Source of the DNA: Candidatus Gastranaerophilales bacterium
GTDB lineage: Bacteria; Cyanobacteriota; Vampirovibrionia; Gastranaerophilales; Gastranaerophilaceae
Assembly: GCA_944324445.1 (NCBI GenBank)
Contig: CALUWL010000003.1
Coordinates: 1-64,000, forward strand
Reading direction: 5' to 3'
DNA length: 64,000 nucleotides
The notes beneath the pieces were generated by a model. It did no database searches. It was given only the letters and a program-made list of their open reading frames with translations, and was not told where the DNA came from. The translations under genes and the position numbers were made by a program. Positions 22,789 through 31,473 of the stretch are shown one piece after another. Each line of letters begins with the position of its first letter. Position 1 is the stretch's first letter.

Positions 22789-23649
22789 ATGTCTGAATAT
22801 ACCGTTGGTAATTACACAACAATGGATTATATTAACATTGTAACCGTTAAAAGTCAGGATACTGTTTCAAAATATTGTGAAAAAACGGGCTTACCTAAGG
22901 AAGAAGTAAGAGAAAATAATAATCTTGGTGCTGATTACGGTATAATTGATAACCAAAAATTAGTAGTTGAATTTCCTTACGAAAAAAGACTTGATACAAT
23001 TTATTCTACGGATGAAAAACGTCAAATATCTGTTTATGAAGTGCAATCAGGAGATACAATAGAAAGCATTTTTGACAATATGAATGTTAATCCGGATGAT
23101 AAATATATCTATGATTTATTAAATCCAAATAATACAAAAGATTCAGATTTAGAAACCGGGGAAAAACTTGCGCTGCCGTATACTGTAACAGAATTTGAAC
23201 TGGTTAAAAAATATTGTCCGAATTTTATTAATAAATATGATTTTTATAAATATTTAGATACCGTTCAAAATGTATTTGTAGGAGAAAATGGTGAATTGGG
23301 ATTACCGTCTGAAGCATCGCTAGATTATAGTGGTATAGAAAATTTCTACATAATGCTTCAAAATACAAATAATTCTTATCCTAGTGCTAGCTCAAGTGCT
23401 CTTCCTGACGGTAGCCGCAAATATAGCATTAATACAAATGGAAATAATGAATTTTTTATAGATGATAACGGCAATATAGATTATAACTACATATCAGATT
23501 TATTAGATATAGAAAATATCGATTTTGATACTGCAGTTCATGATGTCAGCTGCAATAAGCACCATAATGCCATGCAGCCAGAATATAAGTGCAACAATAA
23601 AATAATCACACTAACCGGAGATTTTCCCTTATTTAGCAGTGCAAATTAA
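22789..23649 (+). CDS. LysM-like repeat protein
   Basis: 286 residues from the ATG at 22789 (AAGGA eight nt upstream; the frame is open from a TTG at 22738). Two LysM-like segments: VTVKSQDTVSKYCEKTGLP and VYEVQSGDTIESIFDNMNV with LETGEKLALPY. No signal peptide, so it is either cytoplasmic or exported by a non-Sec route. The last third is low in recognisable motifs. Its stop overlaps the convergent FAD oxidoreductase by 17 nt. Confidence 0.7.
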   Translation: MSEYTVGNYTTMDYINIVTVKSQDTVSKYCEKTGLPKEEVRENNNLGADYGIIDNQKLVVEFPYEKRLDTIYSTDEKRQISVYEVQSGDTIESIFDNMNVNPDDKYIYDLLNPNNTKDSDLETGEKLALPYTVTEFELVKKYCPNFINKYDFYKYLDTVQNVFVGENGELGLPSEASLDYSGIENFYIMLQNTNNSYPSASSSALPDGSRKYSINTNGNNEFFIDDNGNIDYNYISDLLDIENIDFDTAVHDVSCNKHHNAMQPEYKCNNKIITLTGDFPLFSSAN

Positions 23650-24919
23650 AAATATATTTGGCAACTGCTTCGCCCATCGACATACAGCTTTTTTGAACTC
23701 TTAGGGCGCTATGAGCATAAAAATCAACGCCTATTGGTTTACCTATTACAAATAAATTGTCTAAATCGGCGCTGATTAAACTTTCGATTGGCAGTTCATA
23801 TGCTTTTGAAATATTGATAATTGAAGAATTTTTATCATTTGTGTGAACATCAATTCCATAACTAGATGTTAGAACTTTGTTTTTAAAGGTTTTTGACGAT
23901 AAAAGATCTTCTTTTGTGTAGTAATAGCGTGTTTTAATCCTATTTTCTTCTCGTTTGCCTGTTTGTGAGGCGATATTACATATTTGAGCATTTTCAAATC
24001 CTGGAAAATATTTCCTTACGAAATTAAATAATCGCCAAATAGCTTTTCTTCCTTCTATAAGCTCATTAGAAGACATATAAGGATTGTTTTTGAACTGCGC
24101 TATCCTAGGACAATTAAATGCAACTTTGTTTGAAGAGCCGGCGACAGAGAATATTTGGAAATATGCCCTATCATGTTCTAAAAGCAGACCTTCTTTTATG
24201 GCTTTTTTCAAGTATTTATCTAATTTCCATAAAGTTTCTTGATTCCAAGTGCTTGCGGTTGTAAAATGAAATTCTCCATTTGTATCTACATCGCTTCGAT
24301 AGGTATTGGTAATATTCTCATCGTCCTCAAGATTTAGGAGAAACTTTTCAAATTTATTGAAATCAACATTATCTAAAATAAATCTGAGCGAGTTTTGTTG
24401 ATTTTGATCTACATCTTTTATAATTTGGCAGCCTGCAAGTATGGAAAATTCCCCAGAGCCTGTTGCGTCTACAAAATATTTCGATACGATTGGTAATGAT
24501 AATAAATTTGAATTTAAAATTACTTTAGATATTTTTTTATCACAAGTTTCTATACTTTGAATTGTAGTTTCAAATAATATATCAAGATTTTCTTTAATGC
24601 AATTTTCTGAAAGGATGTCATCAAGGACAATTTTTAAAATTTCAGGATTAAACCAGCCTTCGTTTTTATCCTTGTATGTGATTTGAGCATTGAATTTTTT
24701 TGCCGAGGAAACTAATTTTTTATAATATTCGCAATTAATTGTGTTATCTGACGAATTCATAACCGGAACCACGAGCCCACCGGTCATAAGCCCGCCCAGA
24801 AAATTGTTTTTTTCGATTAATAACGTCTTGAGCCCCAGTTTTGCGCACATATACGCACATGCGCAACCTGAAGTACCGCCGCCAGCTATAAAAACATCAT
24901 ATTTCATTGAATTTTCCAT
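23633..24919 (-). CDS. FAD-dependent oxidoreductase (FAD_oxidored family)
   Basis: 428 residues with the dinucleotide-binding motif GGGTSGCACAYMCAKLGL at the N terminus, an ATG-type motif YFVDATGSGE in the middle and a GKPIGVDFYAHSALR flavin-contact region at the end. The family includes poorly characterised reductases with a covalent or tight FAD. Start: ATG at 24919, with TATAAT ending 6 nt upstream; an ATG four codons later is possible. Substrate unknown. Confidence 0.78.
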   Translation of the reverse strand: MENSMKYDVFIAGGGTSGCACAYMCAKLGLKTLLIEKNNFLGGLMTGGLVVPVMNSSDNTINCEYYKKLVSSAKKFNAQITYKDKNEGWFNPEILKIVLDDILSENCIKENLDILFETTIQSIETCDKKISKVILNSNLLSLPIVSKYFVDATGSGEFSILAGCQIIKDVDQNQQNSLRFILDNVDFNKFEKFLLNLEDDENITNTYRSDVDTNGEFHFTTASTWNQETLWKLDKYLKKAIKEGLLLEHDRAYFQIFSVAGSSNKVAFNCPRIAQFKNNPYMSSNELIEGRKAIWRLFNFVRKYFPGFENAQICNIASQTGKREENRIKTRYYYTKEDLLSSKTFKNKVLTSSYGIDVHTNDKNSSIINISKAYELPIESLISADLDNLFVIGKPIGVDFYAHSALRVQKSCMSMGEAVAKYIFNLHC

Positions 24920-25034: not shown

Positions 25035-25062
25035 GGTTATGATAATGTATATTATGTAACTT
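25035..25062 (+). repeat. attL, dif-like XerCD site at left end of prophage
   Basis: Left arm GGTTATGATAA, core TGTATA, right arm TTATGTAACTT: the 11-6-11 layout of bacterial dif. The core and most of the right arm equal E. coli dif. The left arm should be host-derived and the right arm phage-derived. Confidence 0.85.
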
Positions 25063-25137
25063 GGCACTTAAAAAAATAATATAGTAGTTTACTATTCTTT
25101 TTTTATTTTACCCGTCTTAAAATCGATTCTAACGGCT

Positions 25138-26235
25138 CTAATTTTCATTAAACTCATATTGTCTAATAAGTAAATCCAAGTTCATTTTTTTCAATTCTTC
25201 TCTACAGATGAGTCGCTCTTGTGTACTATCTAAATTTTCAACAATTAAATTATCACACATATTATTAAAACTTGACATCCTATATTTGTTGTACATAAAT
25301 TCATCAATATTTTGCAATTTATTAACATAATATCTAGGAATTGGAGCTTTATGTCCATTAGGTAGAACTATATAACCTAATTCAAAAATATTTTTGTAAA
25401 ATTTTTCTAAATATGAATAACCTAATCCAGGCATTCTAGAAGTTAACAAAAATTCAGGCTCAATATCTTTATAAACTTGATAAGCTAATTTACCGAATAA
25501 TTTTTTAGTTACATATCGAGCAACATAAGCAGAACTTTCAAAATTAACTTCACCAATAACAGAAAAACCATAACTTTCATTTGAATAAGCTGGAGACCAA
25601 ATTTTCTCTAAAAAAGGACTACGATAATATAAAACTTCTTTTCCGTGAACACGTCTAAATTGATAAACATATTTATCAGGAAAATTAAAACCATAAATAA
25701 TTAAATGATAATGTGGTCTTTTATGTTTTGCACCATATTCACCACAAGCCATAAAACGAAATTTACAATCATATTCAGACTTAACAGCTTTTCTCAATCT
25801 CTTAAGCCAATTTCTAAAAGCAACTTTGTTTAAACTATGGGGATTAGAACGTCTTAAGAGCATATCATTATTAAAAGTTAAAGTTAAAAAAGCACAATTA
25901 TTATAATGATTATGCATATAAGCTTCATTAGCTGAACGAGTAGCCCACATTCTAGAATAATCAAGACGGCAACCTATACATTTACCACAAGGGACTTTAA
26001 TATTTAAACCACATTCATTACCTTCAAAATCATAATAAATAGGATAATTGTAAGGCTCTTCATATATATCAGAATAATGAACTTTAAACTTTTGAGTATA
26101 TTCTGAAAACATCCAAGCATATACAGAAGATTGTAAACCAAGCAAAAAACGCTGTTTACCAAATTTCAAATATCTTTTACCTTGTTCATCAGTATATAGG
26201 GGATAATATGCTTTTATAGGATGAAAACATACCAT
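25138..26235 (-). CDS. Microvirus replication initiator VP4
   Basis: 365-residue rolling-circle initiator that nicks the replicative form. Starts MVCFHPIKAYYP as gokushovirus VP4 usually do. Motif 1 area LTLTFNNDML, HUH motif in RPHYHLIIYGF, motif 3 in SAYVARYVTKKLFG with the catalytic Tyr and Lys spaced Y-x3-K. Zinc-type CGKCIGCR lies before them. AAGGAG sits 13 nt before the ATG. The stop overlaps the palindromic segment near attL. Confidence 0.93.
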   Translation of the reverse strand: MVCFHPIKAYYPLYTDEQGKRYLKFGKQRFLLGLQSSVYAWMFSEYTQKFKVHYSDIYEEPYNYPIYYDFEGNECGLNIKVPCGKCIGCRLDYSRMWATRSANEAYMHNHYNNCAFLTLTFNNDMLLRRSNPHSLNKVAFRNWLKRLRKAVKSEYDCKFRFMACGEYGAKHKRPHYHLIIYGFNFPDKYVYQFRRVHGKEVLYYRSPFLEKIWSPAYSNESYGFSVIGEVNFESSAYVARYVTKKLFGKLAYQVYKDIEPEFLLTSRMPGLGYSYLEKFYKNIFELGYIVLPNGHKAPIPRYYVNKLQNIDEFMYNKYRMSSFNNMCDNLIVENLDSTQERLICREELKKMNLDLLIRQYEFNEN

Positions 26236-26264
26236 GAATATAGTTAAACTCCTTGTTCACTCCT

Positions 26265-26297
26265 GCCGAGGGCAACCCCCTCGGAAAACCGAGGGGG
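26265..26297. promoter_or_regulatory. Mutually exclusive hairpins before VP4
   Basis: CCGAGGG (26266-26272) can pair with CCCTCGG (26278-26284), or CCCCCTCGG (26276-26284) with CCGAGGGGG (26289-26297) around an AAAA loop. The middle arm is shared, so only one can form. It lies between the VP8-like gene and VP4; no long U-run follows on the minus strand. Confidence 0.6.
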
Positions 26298-26304
26298 AAT
26301 AAAT

Positions 26305-26424
26305 TTAAAGTCGGTAGCCACCACGTGAAAGATTGGGAGTCAGGTTTTTAACGTGAGTTTTTAAAGCACCTTTAATAAATACAGATTTAGAAACTGAATT
26401 AGATAATTTACGCCTCATTGCCAT
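26305..26424 (-). CDS. Small basic DNA-binding protein, VP8-like
   Basis: 39 residues beginning MAMRRKLSNSVSKSVF and ending SRGGYRL, rich in Arg/Lys. This pattern (RRKLS...FxKGA...RGGxRL) recurs in gokushoviruses as the small packaged DNA-binding protein. A longer frame exists upstream, but the ATG at 26424 has AAAGGA ahead of it and matches the phage family's usual start. Confidence 0.8.
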   Translation of the reverse strand: MAMRRKLSNSVSKSVFIKGALKTHVKNLTPNLSRGGYRL

Positions 26425-26566
26425 AATTTTTATAATCCTTTCTATAATTGTTACAAAGTAATTCAAGAGATGTTTTATAATCGTCGACAGAAATATGGTC
26501 ATTAACAAATAATTTAGTTAAAGTTATAAAATCAATTTGATATTCTCGTTTAGTTAGTTTTTTCAT
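26408..26566 (-). CDS. Prophage small protein, unknown
   Basis: 52 residues starting MKKLTKREYQIDFITLTKL, charged and helical in appearance. The ATG overlaps the stop of the 80-residue ORF by 17 nt, and its own stop overlaps the start of the VP8-like gene by 17 nt, so it is embedded in a tightly packed phage run. No family recognised. Confidence 0.6.
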   Translation of the reverse strand: MKKLTKREYQIDFITLTKLFVNDHISVDDYKTSLELLCNNYRKDYKNYGNEA

Positions 26567-26792
26567 TAATAGGCTCCTCTGGAAAATGAATTAATAGTTT
26601 GTTAACACAATCTAAAAAGACCGCATGAGAAATTTTACGAGAAGTAACTAACTTAAATAAATATAAAAAAGTATCTTTTGCGCATTTATCAAACAATTTA
26701 GGATAAATAGGGTCGCATAAGTAAATATTAATATTTTCATCTATAAACTTTGTTGTATCAAACAATGTTAACTGTTTTGAAGAATTTGACAT
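26550..26792 (-). CDS. Prophage hypothetical protein, 80 residues
   Basis: MSNSSKQLTLFDTTKFIDEN start, mixed helical content, no signal or membrane segment. Located between VP2 and the replication side, where gokushoviruses vary most. The AACG/AAAGG stretch upstream can serve as ribosome site. Function unknown. Confidence 0.65.
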   Translation of the reverse strand: MSNSSKQLTLFDTTKFIDENINIYLCDPIYPKLFDKCAKDTFLYLFKLVTSRKISHAVFLDCVNKLLIHFPEEPINEKTN

Positions 26793-26902
26793 AATTTAAC
26801 CTTTCGTTTAGTGTAATAGTATGGAAATATTATTAATAGTTATAATTATTCAATTATCATTAATACACTTTCGATTAAGAGAGTGTAAGAAAATATATAA
26901 AA

Positions 26903-27619
26903 TTATTTACGAATTGGAACAGAAACAGAACCACCAAAACCAAAACGACGATAGCCAGTAGCCCAATCTTTTAATTTAGGATTATTCTTATCCCAAGAAG
27001 ATTGCAAATCATATTCGCGTTTAATAGATTGAGCGCTATTATTATTTAAATTAACCTGTGAATTGGTTAATAAATTTTGATTTTTCATATCATTAAGAAC
27101 TTTAGCAGTACCAGCATTTATTTGAGCGATTTCTGCTTGAGCACGTAAAGGGCCATAATCTTGAAGTTGCCGATTTTGCTCTGTAGTATAGGCGGATTCT
27201 GCATGAGCTTTATCTGATAAATAATCATTTAATTTGATTGCAGAATTATTAACATCAACTTGAGATTCAGTAGCTTTTTTATTATTTTTGTATGCTAAAT
27301 AATCAAGAGCAGAAGAAGCCAAGTCAAACTGTGGAGCAGATACGCCAACAGAGCCACCAGAACCTGCAGACAAATTATTGATGCCTTGAGTAATTGCAAG
27401 CATAGGATTAATACCTGCTTGACGCATTGAATAAGTTGTATCTTGATAGGCATTTTGATTTAATTGACGAGTCAAATTGTATTGATGATTCATCAATTTT
27501 TTCTGATATTTATAAGCTTTTCTAGCTGAATAAGCAGAAGAACCAAAATTAACTGCTAAACTAGGTAAACCTAAAGAGGCAAGAGAAGAAAGAGAAGAAA
27601 GTGCGAGAGCTTCGGCCAT
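26903..27619 (-). CDS. Microvirus DNA pilot protein VP2
   Basis: 238-residue minor structural protein expected to form the tube for genome delivery. Features: Gly/Ala/Ser-rich N terminus, a helix beginning LMNHQYNLTRQLNQNAYQDT, the hallmark AYQDTTYSMRQAGINPMLA, and then a long Gln/Asn-rich helical region. VP1 and VP2 overlap by one base (TAATG), suggesting coupling. AAGGAG precedes the ATG. Confidence 0.9.
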   Translation of the reverse strand: MAEALALSSLSSLASLGLPSLAVNFGSSAYSARKAYKYQKKLMNHQYNLTRQLNQNAYQDTTYSMRQAGINPMLAITQGINNLSAGSGGSVGVSAPQFDLASSALDYLAYKNNKKATESQVDVNNSAIKLNDYLSDKAHAESAYTTEQNRQLQDYGPLRAQAEIAQINAGTAKVLNDMKNQNLLTNSQVNLNNNSAQSIKREYDLQSSWDKNNPKLKDWATGYRRFGFGGSVSVPIRK

Positions 27620-29166
27620 TATATTCTCCTTAATCCTGGAACACCATATTGAGGTATTGGTCTAATATCTTGAAATTCGTGATAAACATCAAGCAAAAAT
27701 TCAGGTTCATTTTGAACAGCTAAACAACGCTTGATAGGTGGATTTTCTTCAATAAAATCACTATTAAGTTTAGGTAATTCTTCAAATTTTTGAGCTAAAT
27801 GCCAAATATCTAAAGATTGAGGGTCTGAACTTCTAAATTTACCAGTTATATATGAGTTTTTATAACGATATTCTGCATTTCGTTCATTATAACCATATAT
27901 TTCATCATCTACAGAAGTACCTTGAGCATAAATTTCTTTATTATATACAGCCTGTTCACCTAAATGAGCTAAAGTTGGGAAGAAATAATCATAACGAGTA
28001 TTTCTTGAAAAGTGTCTATCTAAACCTTGTTGATAAGTCATATCTGTTCTAATAGATACAAGGCCAAGAATAACACCGTGTTCAGTAAATGAATGAGTAA
28101 AACCTGCTCCAGTAGAACCAAAAGTAGCATAAGCAGCTAAATTACCCTGCGGAGAAGTAGAATCAGTTGATGAATTTTGTGTAACGGGATTAATATTTAG
28201 TCTAATTGTACCACCACCGAGATATTCAGGACGTTGTAAACGATAATCAGGACAACGAACACCAAAATGAGAAAGTATAAGCTCAATGTAACGTGTACCA
28301 CCTCGAGCGTCTTGTTCTAAAAATTGTTGTAATGCAATAGCTTGACGCATAGAATTAATTGTTACAGAAGTTGCAGAGGAAAGATCAGCAAGTAAAGTAA
28401 CATTTTGACCAAAAAAACTATCACCGTCGGCACCAATGAGAGTAGAAGGATTATATTTACCAGAAACACCTTCCATTGAATGAGCAATAACAGGACTATG
28501 TAACTGGTTGTCAGAAGTTTGTATAGCTAAATTAGCTGTAGCTCCTAGCGGTAGTTCAACACCAGGACCTTTTTGCGGTTGAGGTAAACAAGAAGTGAAA
28601 TAATCTTGCCTTTTACCGCGTTTTAAAAGTGGGTAATCTTCTTCAACATCATTAGTATCAGTTGTATTTACTTTTACACTATCTTGGAGATTTTCATCTC
28701 TGTACCATTCATTCCAAATTAAATTATATGCACGTAAATAAAAAATAACAGAAGAACATGAAAGATTTGGAATTGCAGGGGGGACGGAAAGATAATCAAG
28801 AAGTCCACCACGAGCAAAACCACTTTCACCTGCTATAATTTTAGGTACAAGAAAATCAATAGAATCATCTGGATTTTTTCTCTCACCCATAAATCTCTGC
28901 CAATTATCCCAAGTCAAACGATTAGGAACAAAGAAATAATGAACATCTAAATAAACGTTATCTAAAACAGGAACAAAGGGAGTAGACATTCTACCAAAGA
29001 AAGTAGAAACTAATTTTTTTGTATCACCAGGGATAACTTCATCAAAAAAAACAGGATATAAATAACCACTGTCAATAGTACCTTTCCAAGTATGATTTCT
29101 TATAAATACGTTACGAGGAATATTTGCAGTAGGTACTTGTGCAAATTGATTAACCATTTGAGACAT
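27619..29166 (-). CDS. Microvirus major capsid protein VP1
   Basis: 515 residues, gokushovirus F-type capsid protein. Diagnostic N-terminal region: HTWKGTIDSGYLYPVFFDEV, then PGDTKK and YFFVPNRLTWDNWQRFMGE; further down RYIELILSHFGVRCPDYRLQ and RPEYLGG, all standard for this family. An insertion of roughly 60-80 residues between the middle blocks fits the surface protrusion loop. Starts at the base where the 39-aa ORF ends. Complete. Confidence 0.96.
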   Translation of the reverse strand: MSQMVNQFAQVPTANIPRNVFIRNHTWKGTIDSGYLYPVFFDEVIPGDTKKLVSTFFGRMSTPFVPVLDNVYLDVHYFFVPNRLTWDNWQRFMGERKNPDDSIDFLVPKIIAGESGFARGGLLDYLSVPPAIPNLSCSSVIFYLRAYNLIWNEWYRDENLQDSVKVNTTDTNDVEEDYPLLKRGKRQDYFTSCLPQPQKGPGVELPLGATANLAIQTSDNQLHSPVIAHSMEGVSGKYNPSTLIGADGDSFFGQNVTLLADLSSATSVTINSMRQAIALQQFLEQDARGGTRYIELILSHFGVRCPDYRLQRPEYLGGGTIRLNINPVTQNSSTDSTSPQGNLAAYATFGSTGAGFTHSFTEHGVILGLVSIRTDMTYQQGLDRHFSRNTRYDYFFPTLAHLGEQAVYNKEIYAQGTSVDDEIYGYNERNAEYRYKNSYITGKFRSSDPQSLDIWHLAQKFEELPKLNSDFIEENPPIKRCLAVQNEPEFLLDVYHEFQDIRPIPQYGVPGLRRI

Positions 29167-29285
29167 TAATTATCACCGCCTAACTTTTCTAAAACAGTAG
29201 TGATAACAGAAACAAGAACATCTGCAATTTTTAAAATAACATTTAAAACTTGTTTAATAACTTCAATTTTATCTAAGATAGACAT
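29166..29285 (-). CDS. Small amphipathic prophage protein, 39 residues
   Basis: Too short for ordinary ORF listing. MSILDKIEVIKQVLN then a hydrophobic stretch (VILKIADVLVSVITTVLEKL) and GGDN. GAAAGGA lies 9 nt before the ATG, and its stop overlaps the VP1 start (TAATG). It could be a membrane-active lysis or scaffolding accessory peptide; this is inferred only from hydrophobicity and position between VP3 and VP1. Confidence 0.65.
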   Translation of the reverse strand: MSILDKIEVIKQVLNVILKIADVLVSVITTVLEKLGGDN

Positions 29286-29347
29286 TTAAAATTCCTTTCA
29301 TAAAATGTATAAAACGGCTGAAACACGCATTATAATTAAATGGTGTC

Positions 29348-29384
29348 AGTCCGCACTATTATATCAAGTAAGGGGGTGCGGACT
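29348..29384. other. Long-stem hairpin at VP3 stop
   Basis: AGTCCGCAC (29348-29356) and GTGCGGACT (29376-29384) form a perfect 9-bp stem with a 19-nt loop that holds a TATAAT sequence on the minus strand. It overlaps the VP3 stop codon. Confidence 0.5.
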
Positions 29385-29872
29385 TACTGAGAAGAAACCT
29401 CAGTAACTGGAGTTTCAACAGGATTAACAGGAGTTGAAATAGTTCCAGTGCCCACAGGGGGTTCAACAGGATTAACAGGAGTTGAAATAGTTCCAGTGCC
29501 CACAGGGGGTTCAGCCGTTATTTTCTTTTCAATAAGACCTAATTTAACAGCTTTTTCATAATTATCAGGATTATCAATAAAAGCTAATAACTTCTTAGGG
29601 TCATTTCCAAATTCGGCTCTAATATGCGATGGTAGTTCCTCAAATCTTGAATTTGCATCAGCAATAACATTTAAAGCATTTTCATAAGCATCTGGAGCAA
29701 CAACTTGATTAAAAAGGGGAGTTTTTTGATTATATGAAGGAGCAATCATACCTTTTACAATATTATTAATATCAGTTTCAAAACCAAAGGACTGTTGTGT
29801 TTTTGAGGGCTTATCAGACTTAAAACCCTCTAGCTTTGTATGATTATATAAAGTATTAAATTTTATTGCCAT
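29384..29872 (-). CDS. Microvirus internal scaffolding protein VP3
   Basis: 162 residues from the ATG at 29872 (MAIKFNTLYNHTKLEG), selected because AAAGGA is 4 nt upstream; an in-frame ATG ten codons earlier is less supported. The segment KTQQSFGFETDINNIVKGM followed by the FEELPSHIRAEFGNDPKKLL motif (RFEELPxxxRxxFxxxPxxFL) is the VP3 signature. The tail carries a 16-residue unit, EPPVGTGTISTPVNPV, in two tandem copies. Confidence 0.88.
   Translation of the reverse strand: MAIKFNTLYNHTKLEGFKSDKPSKTQQSFGFETDINNIVKGMIAPSYNQKTPLFNQVVAPDAYENALNVIADANSRFEELPSHIRAEFGNDPKKLLAFIDNPDNYEKAVKLGLIEKKITAEPPVGTGTISTPVNPVEPPVGTGTISTPVNPVETPVTEVSSQ
29414..29509. repeat. Two tandem 48-bp repeats in VP3 tail
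   Basis: Two 48-bp copies in direct tandem, starting at 29414 and 29462, encoding a Pro/Thr-rich 16-residue unit. The frame is kept. Confidence 0.85.
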
Positions 29873-29889
29873 AAAATCCTTTCTACTAA

Positions 29890-29912
29890 AGAAAGCGGGC
29901 AAAGCCCGCAGG
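29890..29912 (-). terminator. Hairpin between ORF5 and VP3
   Basis: GCGGGC (29895-29900), AAA, GCCCGC (29904-29909); on the minus strand it is followed by TTTCTTT. It could reduce read-through from ORF5 into the structural genes. Confidence 0.6.
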
Positions 29913-29938
29913 TGAATAACAGTTATGGAGTACTAATG

Positions 29939-30523
29939 TTAGCTAAAAAGTTTATCTAAAAAAGTTCGTTTTTGTTTAGATAATTCAGGTTTAGGAGTGT
30001 ATAGTTCAACAGGCTCTTCACATTTAATTACGTTATAAAATTTATTTTCAAATTCTTGTATTTTAGTATCTAGTAAGCGAATTTTTCTTTCATATTCAGA
30101 ATGAATTTTTTCATAATCACAAAGAATAGATGATAATTGCTGCTTATCAATTTGAACTTCTTTTAACAATTCATCATATTTAATAGAATCTTGAAGTTTA
30201 TAAACAGACAAATTATCAGAAAGATGATTAAAATCAGATATTAAATCGCCTGTATCAAGGTTAAACTTACCAAGAGTAACTAAAGAATAATCATCCGGAA
30301 ATTTGCAAATTAAAGAACTAGTATAATTAACAATTGAAGAAACTTGGCGCATAGCTTCATCATCTGATTTTGCAAAAAACGGGGGCAAATATTGTTTAAG
30401 TTTTTTATCATAAATAGAATAAAGTTTTAAACTATTTGAATCTACAAATTGACAATTTTTTAATTCTTCTTCATTTGCAATGGTAACAAAATCGTTACAA
30501 ACTTGACTTTCATGTTTCATCAT
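29939..30523 (-). CDS. Microvirus ORF5-like nonstructural protein
   Basis: 194 residues. The core LYSIYDKKLKQYLPPFFAKSDDEAMRQ followed by FPDDYSLVTLGKFNLDTG matches the gokushovirus ORF5/VP5 family, involved in viral DNA synthesis. After about residue 110 comes a heptad-like charged helix (coiled coil) not typical of the short phage homologues. AAGGAG lies 8 nt before the ATG. First gene after the right dif site. Confidence 0.8.
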   Translation of the reverse strand: MMKHESQVCNDFVTIANEEELKNCQFVDSNSLKLYSIYDKKLKQYLPPFFAKSDDEAMRQVSSIVNYTSSLICKFPDDYSLVTLGKFNLDTGDLISDFNHLSDNLSVYKLQDSIKYDELLKEVQIDKQQLSSILCDYEKIHSEYERKIRLLDTKIQEFENKFYNVIKCEEPVELYTPKPELSKQKRTFLDKLFS

Positions 30524-30554
30524 GGTTCTAACTCCTTTTTCATTCGGAGCGACA

Positions 30555-30582
30555 TGTAGTGAAAATGTATATTATGTAACAT
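30555..30582 (+). repeat. attR, dif-like XerCD site at right end of prophage
   Basis: Left arm TGTAGTGAAAA (expected phage-derived), core TGTATA, right arm TTATGTAACAT (expected host-derived). The host arms of attL and attR joined give a site matching E. coli dif at 22 of 28 positions by my count. Confidence 0.85.
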
Positions 30583-30783
30583 ATCAATATTTTATTAAAA
30601 CATATATTTATACCAAATTAATATTATATCGGCCTTAAAATTGATTTTAGAGGCTGTAATTATTATATGCATAATAATGTTTCAAATTTAACTAAATGTA
30701 ATAATTGCACTCTATAGTTATTTGTTTGCAATGAAGATTTTTATTTATTTTGTTAAATTAATACAAAAATTAAGGAGAAATTT

Positions 30784-31473
30784 ATGCAAAATTCAATAAC
30801 AAGTCAAATAAACGACAAAGTAAGATTAATTCTTGTTGATGACCATAAATTATTTAGATGCGGAATTAAATCTTTGTTTGAAAATTCCAAAGGTGTATGT
30901 GTCATCGCTGAAGCCTCAAACGGCAAAGAAGGCATCAGCAAAATAATAGCTCAAAATCCTGACGTTGTACTATTGGATTTAGAACTTGGCGATATAAACG
31001 GACTTGATTTAATTGAAAAAGTTCTAGCGCAAAAACCAAATGTTAAATTTATAATTTTAACATCTCATATTAACGAACATGTTATTAATAAAGCAATGAA
31101 AATGGGGATTTATGGATATATTTTGAAGGATATTAATTCAGAATTTCTCGATATGATTGTAAAATCTGTTTCAACCGGAGCAATGTGGATTGATAAAAAA
31201 GTAGTCCAAATTTTAAGAGAACTAAATCCAAACGTGGTCCCAGCAACACAAATAAGCCGCTCTAGTTTTAAATCTACACACGCAAATTTAACTGCAAGAG
31301 AATATGAAGTACTCAAACTAGTTGTTGATGGAAAATCTAATCAACAAATAGCTGAAGCTCTAAATATCTCAGAACACACCTCTAAAGCCCATGTGTGCAA
31401 TATTATTCAAAAACTTGTTGTTGACGATAGAACACAAGCTGCTGTTAAAGCAATTAGGGAAGGTATAGTTTAA
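30784..31473 (+). CDS. NarL/FixJ-family response regulator
   Basis: 229 residues: receiver domain with acidic DD pair (LVDDHKLF), phosphoacceptor Asp about 65 in VVLLDLELG, and Lys in the YILKD segment; then a LuxR-type HTH (LTAREYEVLKLVVDGKSNQQ through HTSKAHVCNIIQKL). No histidine kinase is next to it, so it is an orphan here. AAGGAG just upstream of the ATG. It lies beside the dif site. Target genes unknown. Confidence 0.92.
   Translation: MQNSITSQINDKVRLILVDDHKLFRCGIKSLFENSKGVCVIAEASNGKEGISKIIAQNPDVVLLDLELGDINGLDLIEKVLAQKPNVKFIILTSHINEHVINKAMKMGIYGYILKDINSEFLDMIVKSVSTGAMWIDKKVVQILRELNPNVVPATQISRSSFKSTHANLTAREYEVLKLVVDGKSNQQIAEALNISEHTSKAHVCNIIQKLVVDDRTQAAVKAIREGIV

Follow-up and report, generated by a model that had tools for sequence, protein, structure and literature searches.

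A gokushovirus prophage, probably integrated by host XerCD, at the dif site of a Candidatus Gastranaerophilales genome

The 64,000-nucleotide stretch of DNA analysed here (the window) belongs to contig 3 of a 1.8-Mb gut metagenome-assembled genome (MAG) of Candidatus Gastranaerophilales, which is 97% complete and consists of 96 contigs. Positions 25035-30582 hold a complete microvirus with the gene set of a gokushovirus, encoded by the minus strand and flanked by two copies of dif, the chromosome-separation site. From core to core, this unit measures 5,520 bp (junctions at 25046 and 30566 of the contig), its circular relatives being 5.3-5.7 kb long. All its frames are open. The two junctions, the phage genes and the host genes on either side are as follows.

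23633..24919, minus strand: host flavin adenine dinucleotide (FAD)-dependent oxidoreductase, left neighbour of dif in congeners (PF12831, E=7e-76; synteny in 27 genomes)
25035..25062, plus strand: left junction attL, a full dif made of the host XerC arm GGTTATGATAA, the core TGTATA and the phage-side XerD arm TTATGTAACTT; its left arm is identical to that of many empty congeners
25138..26235, minus strand: Rep (VP4), rolling-circle replication initiator, 365 amino acids (PF23343, E=1e-16; phrog_942, E=2e-90)
26305..26424, minus strand: VP8/J-like small basic protein, 39 amino acids, with the size and place of the annotated "DNA binding protein" of the circular phage PQ007125
26550..26792, minus strand: open reading frame (ORF) of 80 amino acids between VP2 and Rep, without PHROG match; circular relatives have an ORF of similar size at that place
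26903..27619, minus strand: VP2, DNA pilot protein, 238 amino acids (phrog_8693, E=1e-11)
27619..29166, minus strand: VP1, major capsid protein, 515 amino acids (PF02305, E=1e-174; 73% identical to VP1 of bajarodmic virus 877)
29166..29285, minus strand: hydrophobic/amphipathic ORF of 39 amino acids overlapping the VP1 start; an ORF of the same size lies there in circular relatives
29384..29902, minus strand: VP3, internal scaffold protein, 172 amino acids from a TTG start, with an ATG 10 codons in (PF09675, E=6e-27)
29939..30523, minus strand: ORF5, nonstructural DNA-binding protein, 194 amino acids (PF20577, E=1e-19; phrog_1670, E=4e-20)
30555..30582, plus strand: right junction attR, made of a weak, phage-derived XerC arm TGTAGTGAAAA, the core TGTATA and the host XerD arm TTATGTAACAT, 201 bp before the response regulator, as at empty sites
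30784..31473, plus strand: host LuxR-type response regulator, right neighbour of dif (PF00072 and PF00196; synteny)

The PF02305 capsid, the PF23343 Rep, the phrog_8693 pilot protein and a length within 4-7 kb are those of Microviridae, and the presence of both VP3 (PF09675) and ORF5/VP5 (PF20577) is that of Gokushovirinae. Besides the genes listed, no ORF of the unit has a microvirus match in Pfam or PHROG that could correspond to an external scaffold or a spike gene. The original prediction, a full microvirus gene set with intact frames between two dif-type sites and devoid of integrase, is thus borne out by the Pfam and PHROG matches and the open frames. Its coordinates coincide to the base with the outer ends of the two 28-bp dif copies, and no integrase was found in the prophage region, the four tyrosine-recombinase matches of the genome all lying on other contigs.

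With up to two mismatches, the 15-mer TGTATATTATGTAAC occurs only at the two junctions in the 64 kb (0.51 occurrences expected by chance) and the extended dif pattern only at these same two places in the whole 1.8-Mb genome. The left arm of attL is the one present in empty hosts, and attR has its right arm on the host side; the other two arms, left in attR and right in attL, were therefore brought by the phage.

Comparison with related genomes provides the empty sites that the original prediction had proposed to look for. Among 28 congeneric genomes, dif is found exactly once in 27, where it sits between the FAD oxidoreductase and the LuxR-type response regulator. In 22 congeners, dif and the regulator are 166-241 bp apart. 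These congeners therefore carry empty sites and keep dif there; genomes devoid of dif at this place would have spoken against integration. This distance reaches 5.69-5.86 kb in four genomes, the one that contains the window (G000), G010, G016 and G024, all occupied by microviruses. These four occupants belong to three capsid clades and are found in both orientations, with phage genes that point the same way as dif in G010 and G016 and the opposite way in G000 and G024. The 1.8 kb that separate dif from the response regulator in G009 (L105) were also considered as a possible prophage; they contain an unrelated ORF without phage match.

The window phage is not the sole lysogen, as 12 of 383 genomes of the order carry the Phage_F capsid family, to which G016 must be added. 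All five capsid matches found among 386 genomes of the phylum, whose photosynthetic share was not broken down, fall in the family of the window host. Outside the genus, two dif copies separated by 4.6-5.5 kb enclose a microvirus in each of G098, G195, G199, G373 and G056; these genomes belong to other genera, and G056 to another family. This brings the total to nine prophages at dif in six genera. The gene interrupted by two of the prophages from other genera is intact in their empty relatives, G114 and G036/G051. In G349, a microvirus is bordered by one dif and by the contig end. Three contigs of 5.4-7.1 kb binned with Gastranaerophilales (L125, L126 and L127, from G325, G362 and G227) also carry microvirus capsid genes, which are divergent in G362 and G227; no host flank was recognised on them and they prove nothing about integration.

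The phylogeny of VP1, built with IQ-TREE, agrees with the gokushovirus nature of the element. VP1 of the window phage falls in a 38-row group (97/99) with phiMH2K, Gokushovirus WZ-2015a and Escherichia coli prophages, and within it in a clade of 11 rows (98/96) that includes G010 and nine circular phages from rodents and a marmot, which are its nearest relatives. VP1 of the E. coli prophages C5 and C41 forms a clade of its own (100/100), apart from the window phage, which is thus not an Enterogokushovirus. G098, G195, G056/G199, the very divergent G016/G024 and the long-branched G373 and G349 represent separate VP1 lineages. At least five capsid lineages have therefore made their way into the dif of the order. 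Scanning IMG/VR with VP1 gave relatives at most 57% identical, of no help for host assignment.

The dif core is also found in ten circular relatives, i.e., the nine of the 11-row clade and bajarodmic virus 868, whose match is too short for placement in the VP1 tree. In the layouts checked, it lies between rep and the next gene. Three circular relatives of G010 from one capsid clade (L156, L157 and L158) carry it at a common intergenic position but in opposite directions.

In the nine prophages, the core is always identical between host and phage arms (6/6), the XerD arm shares 8-11 of 11 positions and the XerC arm only 4-8 of 11. The ten circular phages match the dif of the genus at 98% in the core, 94% in the XerD arm and 61% in the XerC arm. 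Furthermore, the phage core follows that of the host: the genus of the window has TGTATA, G098 and the empty G114 related to it have TAGATA, and the remaining prophages share TATATA with the empty relatives of G056. Xer recombination requires identical cores and would be expected to give this pattern. The phage thus appears to copy the XerD arm and the core of dif but not its XerC arm, an arrangement that is the mirror image of that of the E. coli enterogokushoviruses and of Vibrio TLCphi. Read by the same method, E. coli C5 and C41 have an intact XerC arm, an altered XerD arm and, in one of the two, an altered core, in agreement with the published description (PMC7062461). The window phage has a dif-like attachment site, lies at the chromosomal dif and lacks an integrase of its own, like the integrative mobile elements exploiting Xer (IMEXs), but its arms are the reverse of those of TLCphi-type IMEXs, whose XerC arm and core are dif-like and whose XerD arm is divergent.

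This polarity could be an artefact of naming, the arm called XerD binding XerC in these bacteria and the mechanism being the same as in enterobacteria. The arms were assigned from the sequence, by resemblance to E. coli dif and by conservation, which as a rule marks the XerD arm in all phyla examined (PMC3025954), and dif is nearly palindromic around its core. However, the right arm TTATGTAA matches the XerD arm of E. coli, TTATGTTAAAT, and it is this arm that is conserved across genera, as XerD arms are, which makes a mere inversion of names unlikely.

The host was predicted to be of the Vampirovibrionia type. This agrees with an exact search for the dif of the genus in the 84,980 species genomes of GTDB-220: it returned 26 loci, all from Candidatus Gastranaerophilales or from unnamed/Cyanobacteria MAGs, several of them with gut or ruminant sample names. 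The NCBI taxonomy places Candidatus Gastranaerophilales within Candidatus Melainabacteria. Host XerCD had been named as the expected machinery, and the genome does encode two Xer-type recombinases of about 300 amino acids, one nearest to the XerD model and the other nearest to XerC, which both exceed the general-family cut-off NF001399 and probably form a XerC/XerD pair. A third, shorter tyrosine recombinase is encoded by a 192-amino-acid frame at the start of contig C37.

Integration by host XerCD would best explain these data. The site carried by the phage would pair with the host dif through the shared core and XerD arm, and host XerCD would recombine them. After integration, the left junction is a full dif, which should preserve chromosome dimer resolution, and the right junction a weak one. 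The core being identical on both sides, the same enzymes could excise the phage. It therefore seems highly probable (about 0.9) that the window contains a complete, probably viable gokushovirus prophage of the Candidatus Gastranaerophilales chromosome, which would establish a reversible lysogeny through host XerCD at dif. Three points weigh on the other side. Both Xer proteins score slightly under the XerC and XerD equivalog cut-offs. No dif core was found, with up to two mismatches, in bajarodmic viruses 902 and 440, relatives of the G016/G024 lineage, so that the dif habit is not fixed in every lineage. Lastly, excision, a circular form and infectivity are, for the window copy, predictions made from assembled sequence.

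A defective or fossil prophage, which would no longer excise or form particles, could account for the weak XerC arm of the right junction, the excision of the window copy being itself presumed. Nevertheless, all its ORFs are intact, and its length and gene order are those of circular relatives. Furthermore, the differences between its VP1 and that of bajarodmic virus 877 are concentrated at third codon positions (0.249/0.144/0.425 for the three positions), the pattern expected of a selected protein. A weak XerC arm is also present in the circular phages and is thus the normal state of these elements rather than a sign of decay, so that a fossil is improbable.

Integration at dif by another agent, such as the shorter tyrosine recombinase of C37 or homologous recombination, is very improbable. 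Nine prophages from six genera all lie exactly at dif and the phage core changes with that of the host, while the identical stretch of about 17 bp is generally considered too short for an efficient RecA-dependent exchange. An assembly chimera or a mis-binned phage contig, free phage DNA having been joined to a host contig through the shared dif, might be evoked for a draft in 96 contigs, with a 17-bp identical core common to phage and host as a possible false join and lone microviral contigs in bins of the order (see the warning in PMC9239249), but it is rejected on the basis of the 22 empty sites and of nine junction pairs with host flanks, since nine genomes from several named assemblies share the same architecture with both flanks, these flanks are constant while the phage side varies, and a 17-bp repeat is, by established practice, below the usual assembly k-mers.

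Lysogeny of microviruses at dif is not new in itself. The gokushovirus prophages of Enterobacteria, to which the original prediction referred, are known, XerCD dependence of dif integration having been shown for one gokushovirus (PMC7062461), but dif-integrating microviruses are also known from Bacteroidetes: integrase-less BMV proviruses lie there at dif-like sites, with an empty-site comparison for one of them (PMC3091885). The enterogokushoviruses of Escherichia (EC6098 and others, PMC7062461) share with the window phage a gokushovirus capsid, rep and scaffold, the lack of an integrase, the chromosomal dif as target and one full dif after integration; they differ by their host group and their separate VP1 clade. 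The BMV proviruses share the integrase-less dif habit, whereas, as described in PMC3091885, their capsid group stands apart from gokushoviruses and their hosts belong to another phylum. The Vibrio elements CTXphi, VGJphi and TLCphi (PMC4246890, PMC5357621) are also single-stranded DNA phages without an integrase (TLCphi being a satellite), which rely on the XerCD of their host to recombine at dif. However, they are filamentous and it is on the XerD side that their sites differ from dif: the homology of CTXphi is confined to the XerC side, the core of VGJphi differs next to the XerD site and the XerD arm of TLCphi is divergent (PMC4246890, PMC5357621). The closest phages are bajarodmic viruses 877, 1116, 868, 556, 770 and 864, Dipodfec virus 760, Microvirus mar38 and similar phages, whose VP1 is 53-73% identical to that of the window phage or of G010. 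They have a similar gene order and length, with the dif core in the interval that separates rep from the adjacent gene, but they are known only as circles from rodent or marmot faeces, in records that name no bacterial host. These similarities suggest that their hosts are Gastranaerophilales.

Vampirovibrionia were not known to the original prediction as hosts of such a lysogen. A global survey had already reported single microviral contigs in Melainabacteria MAGs and had set these links aside as error-prone (PMC9239249). In the PubMed Central literature searched, no paper links Microviridae with Gastranaerophilales; Melainabacteria gave this survey only and Vampirovibrio one unrelated review. 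With respect to this literature, the host class is new, as are integrated, empty-site-controlled evidence in Gastranaerophilales, recurrence in several lineages, the mirror-image attachment site and a dif located in a coding region.

This last feature extends over most of the order, outside the genus of the window, where dif lies in frame within a PF05430 (MnmD-like) methyltransferase gene, to which the FAD gene is adjacent in the family of the window host. The loci concerned are the following.

L190, 5936-7171: dif in the PF05430 gene
L191, 6314-7357: dif in the PF05430 gene
L192, 5534-6553: dif in the PF05430 gene
L193-L222: dif in the PF05430 gene

An open frame of 292-438 amino acids runs through dif in 28 of 29 loci scanned, the 29th, a near-palindrome read on the wrong strand, being left out, and encodes xHNIYY antisense to dif. 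Over these 28 loci, the codons CAT AAT ATA TAT TAT show no synonymous change and a single substitution (TGT for TAT) in 140 codons. The prophages of G056, G098, G195, G199 and G373 (L072, L120-L123) split the methyltransferase gene, leaving one part on each side. In G195 (L121, 10889-12436), the Rep frame continues into the C-terminal half of the methyltransferase. In the genus of the window, dif is intergenic and the methyltransferase gene lies at another place (contig 32, 267 amino acids), with a match limited to the C-terminal part of the query. Most known dif sites, about 94-96%, lie outside coding sequence (PMC3025954, PMC2731167). In Cyanobacteria, the prediction of dif from profiles had been unsuccessful (PMC3025954).

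Beyond the XerD arm, many hosts and phages share a palindrome-like motif, CTTAAAATCGATTYTA, located 51-54 bp past this arm. The window contains two copies of it.

25116..25131, plus strand: palindrome-like motif CTTAAAATCGATTCTA, on the phage side of attL
30634..30649, plus strand: same motif, CTTAAAATTGATTTTA, on the host side of attR

At offsets of 50-55 bp, at least 11 of its 16 positions are matched at 12 of 23 phage-free congener sites, in six of ten circular phages and at six of eight prophage ends, for shuffle means of 0.56, 0.15 and 0.13, respectively; the size of this effect is uncertain, since the motif was derived from the same data and one other offset window reaches 7/23 in hosts. 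This palindrome may be an accessory site for Xer recombination, or else a flank that has passed between phage and host. Over 70 bp, the empty flank that follows dif in G013 (L094) is about 80% similar to the phage side of the attL described here, a resemblance that would fit such a swap of flanks.

These features could together amount to a further way of exploiting Xer, a proposal that remains tentative and has slightly less than an even chance of being right. The phage site would mimic the host core and XerD arm, often with the palindrome about 52 bp beyond and with a degenerate XerC arm. The order of the reactions or the helper factors would then differ from those of CTXphi, VGJphi, TLCphi and the enterogokushoviruses, and, in most of the order, lysogeny would reversibly switch off the methyltransferase gene that bears dif. 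The reversed polarity makes a simple Xer recombination test possible.

The occupied and empty sites bring physical evidence of gokushoviruses in Gastranaerophilales hosts, for which earlier links based on lone contigs had met with doubt (PMC9239249), and point to a recurrent way of life in this host group. They also predict hosts for uncultured gut microviruses that share the dif core and identify dif sites in a non-photosynthetic lineage next to Cyanobacteria. Two relatives allow these sites to be placed with respect to the cumulative guanine-cytosine (GC) skew, and one of them, G033, shows dif in a terminus position. G007 has only a weak skew, with dif somewhere on a wide plateau. On the 1.03-Mb contig of G033, the skew peaks at 775.8 kb and the sole dif is at 806.0 kb, 30 kb away (400 kb examined).

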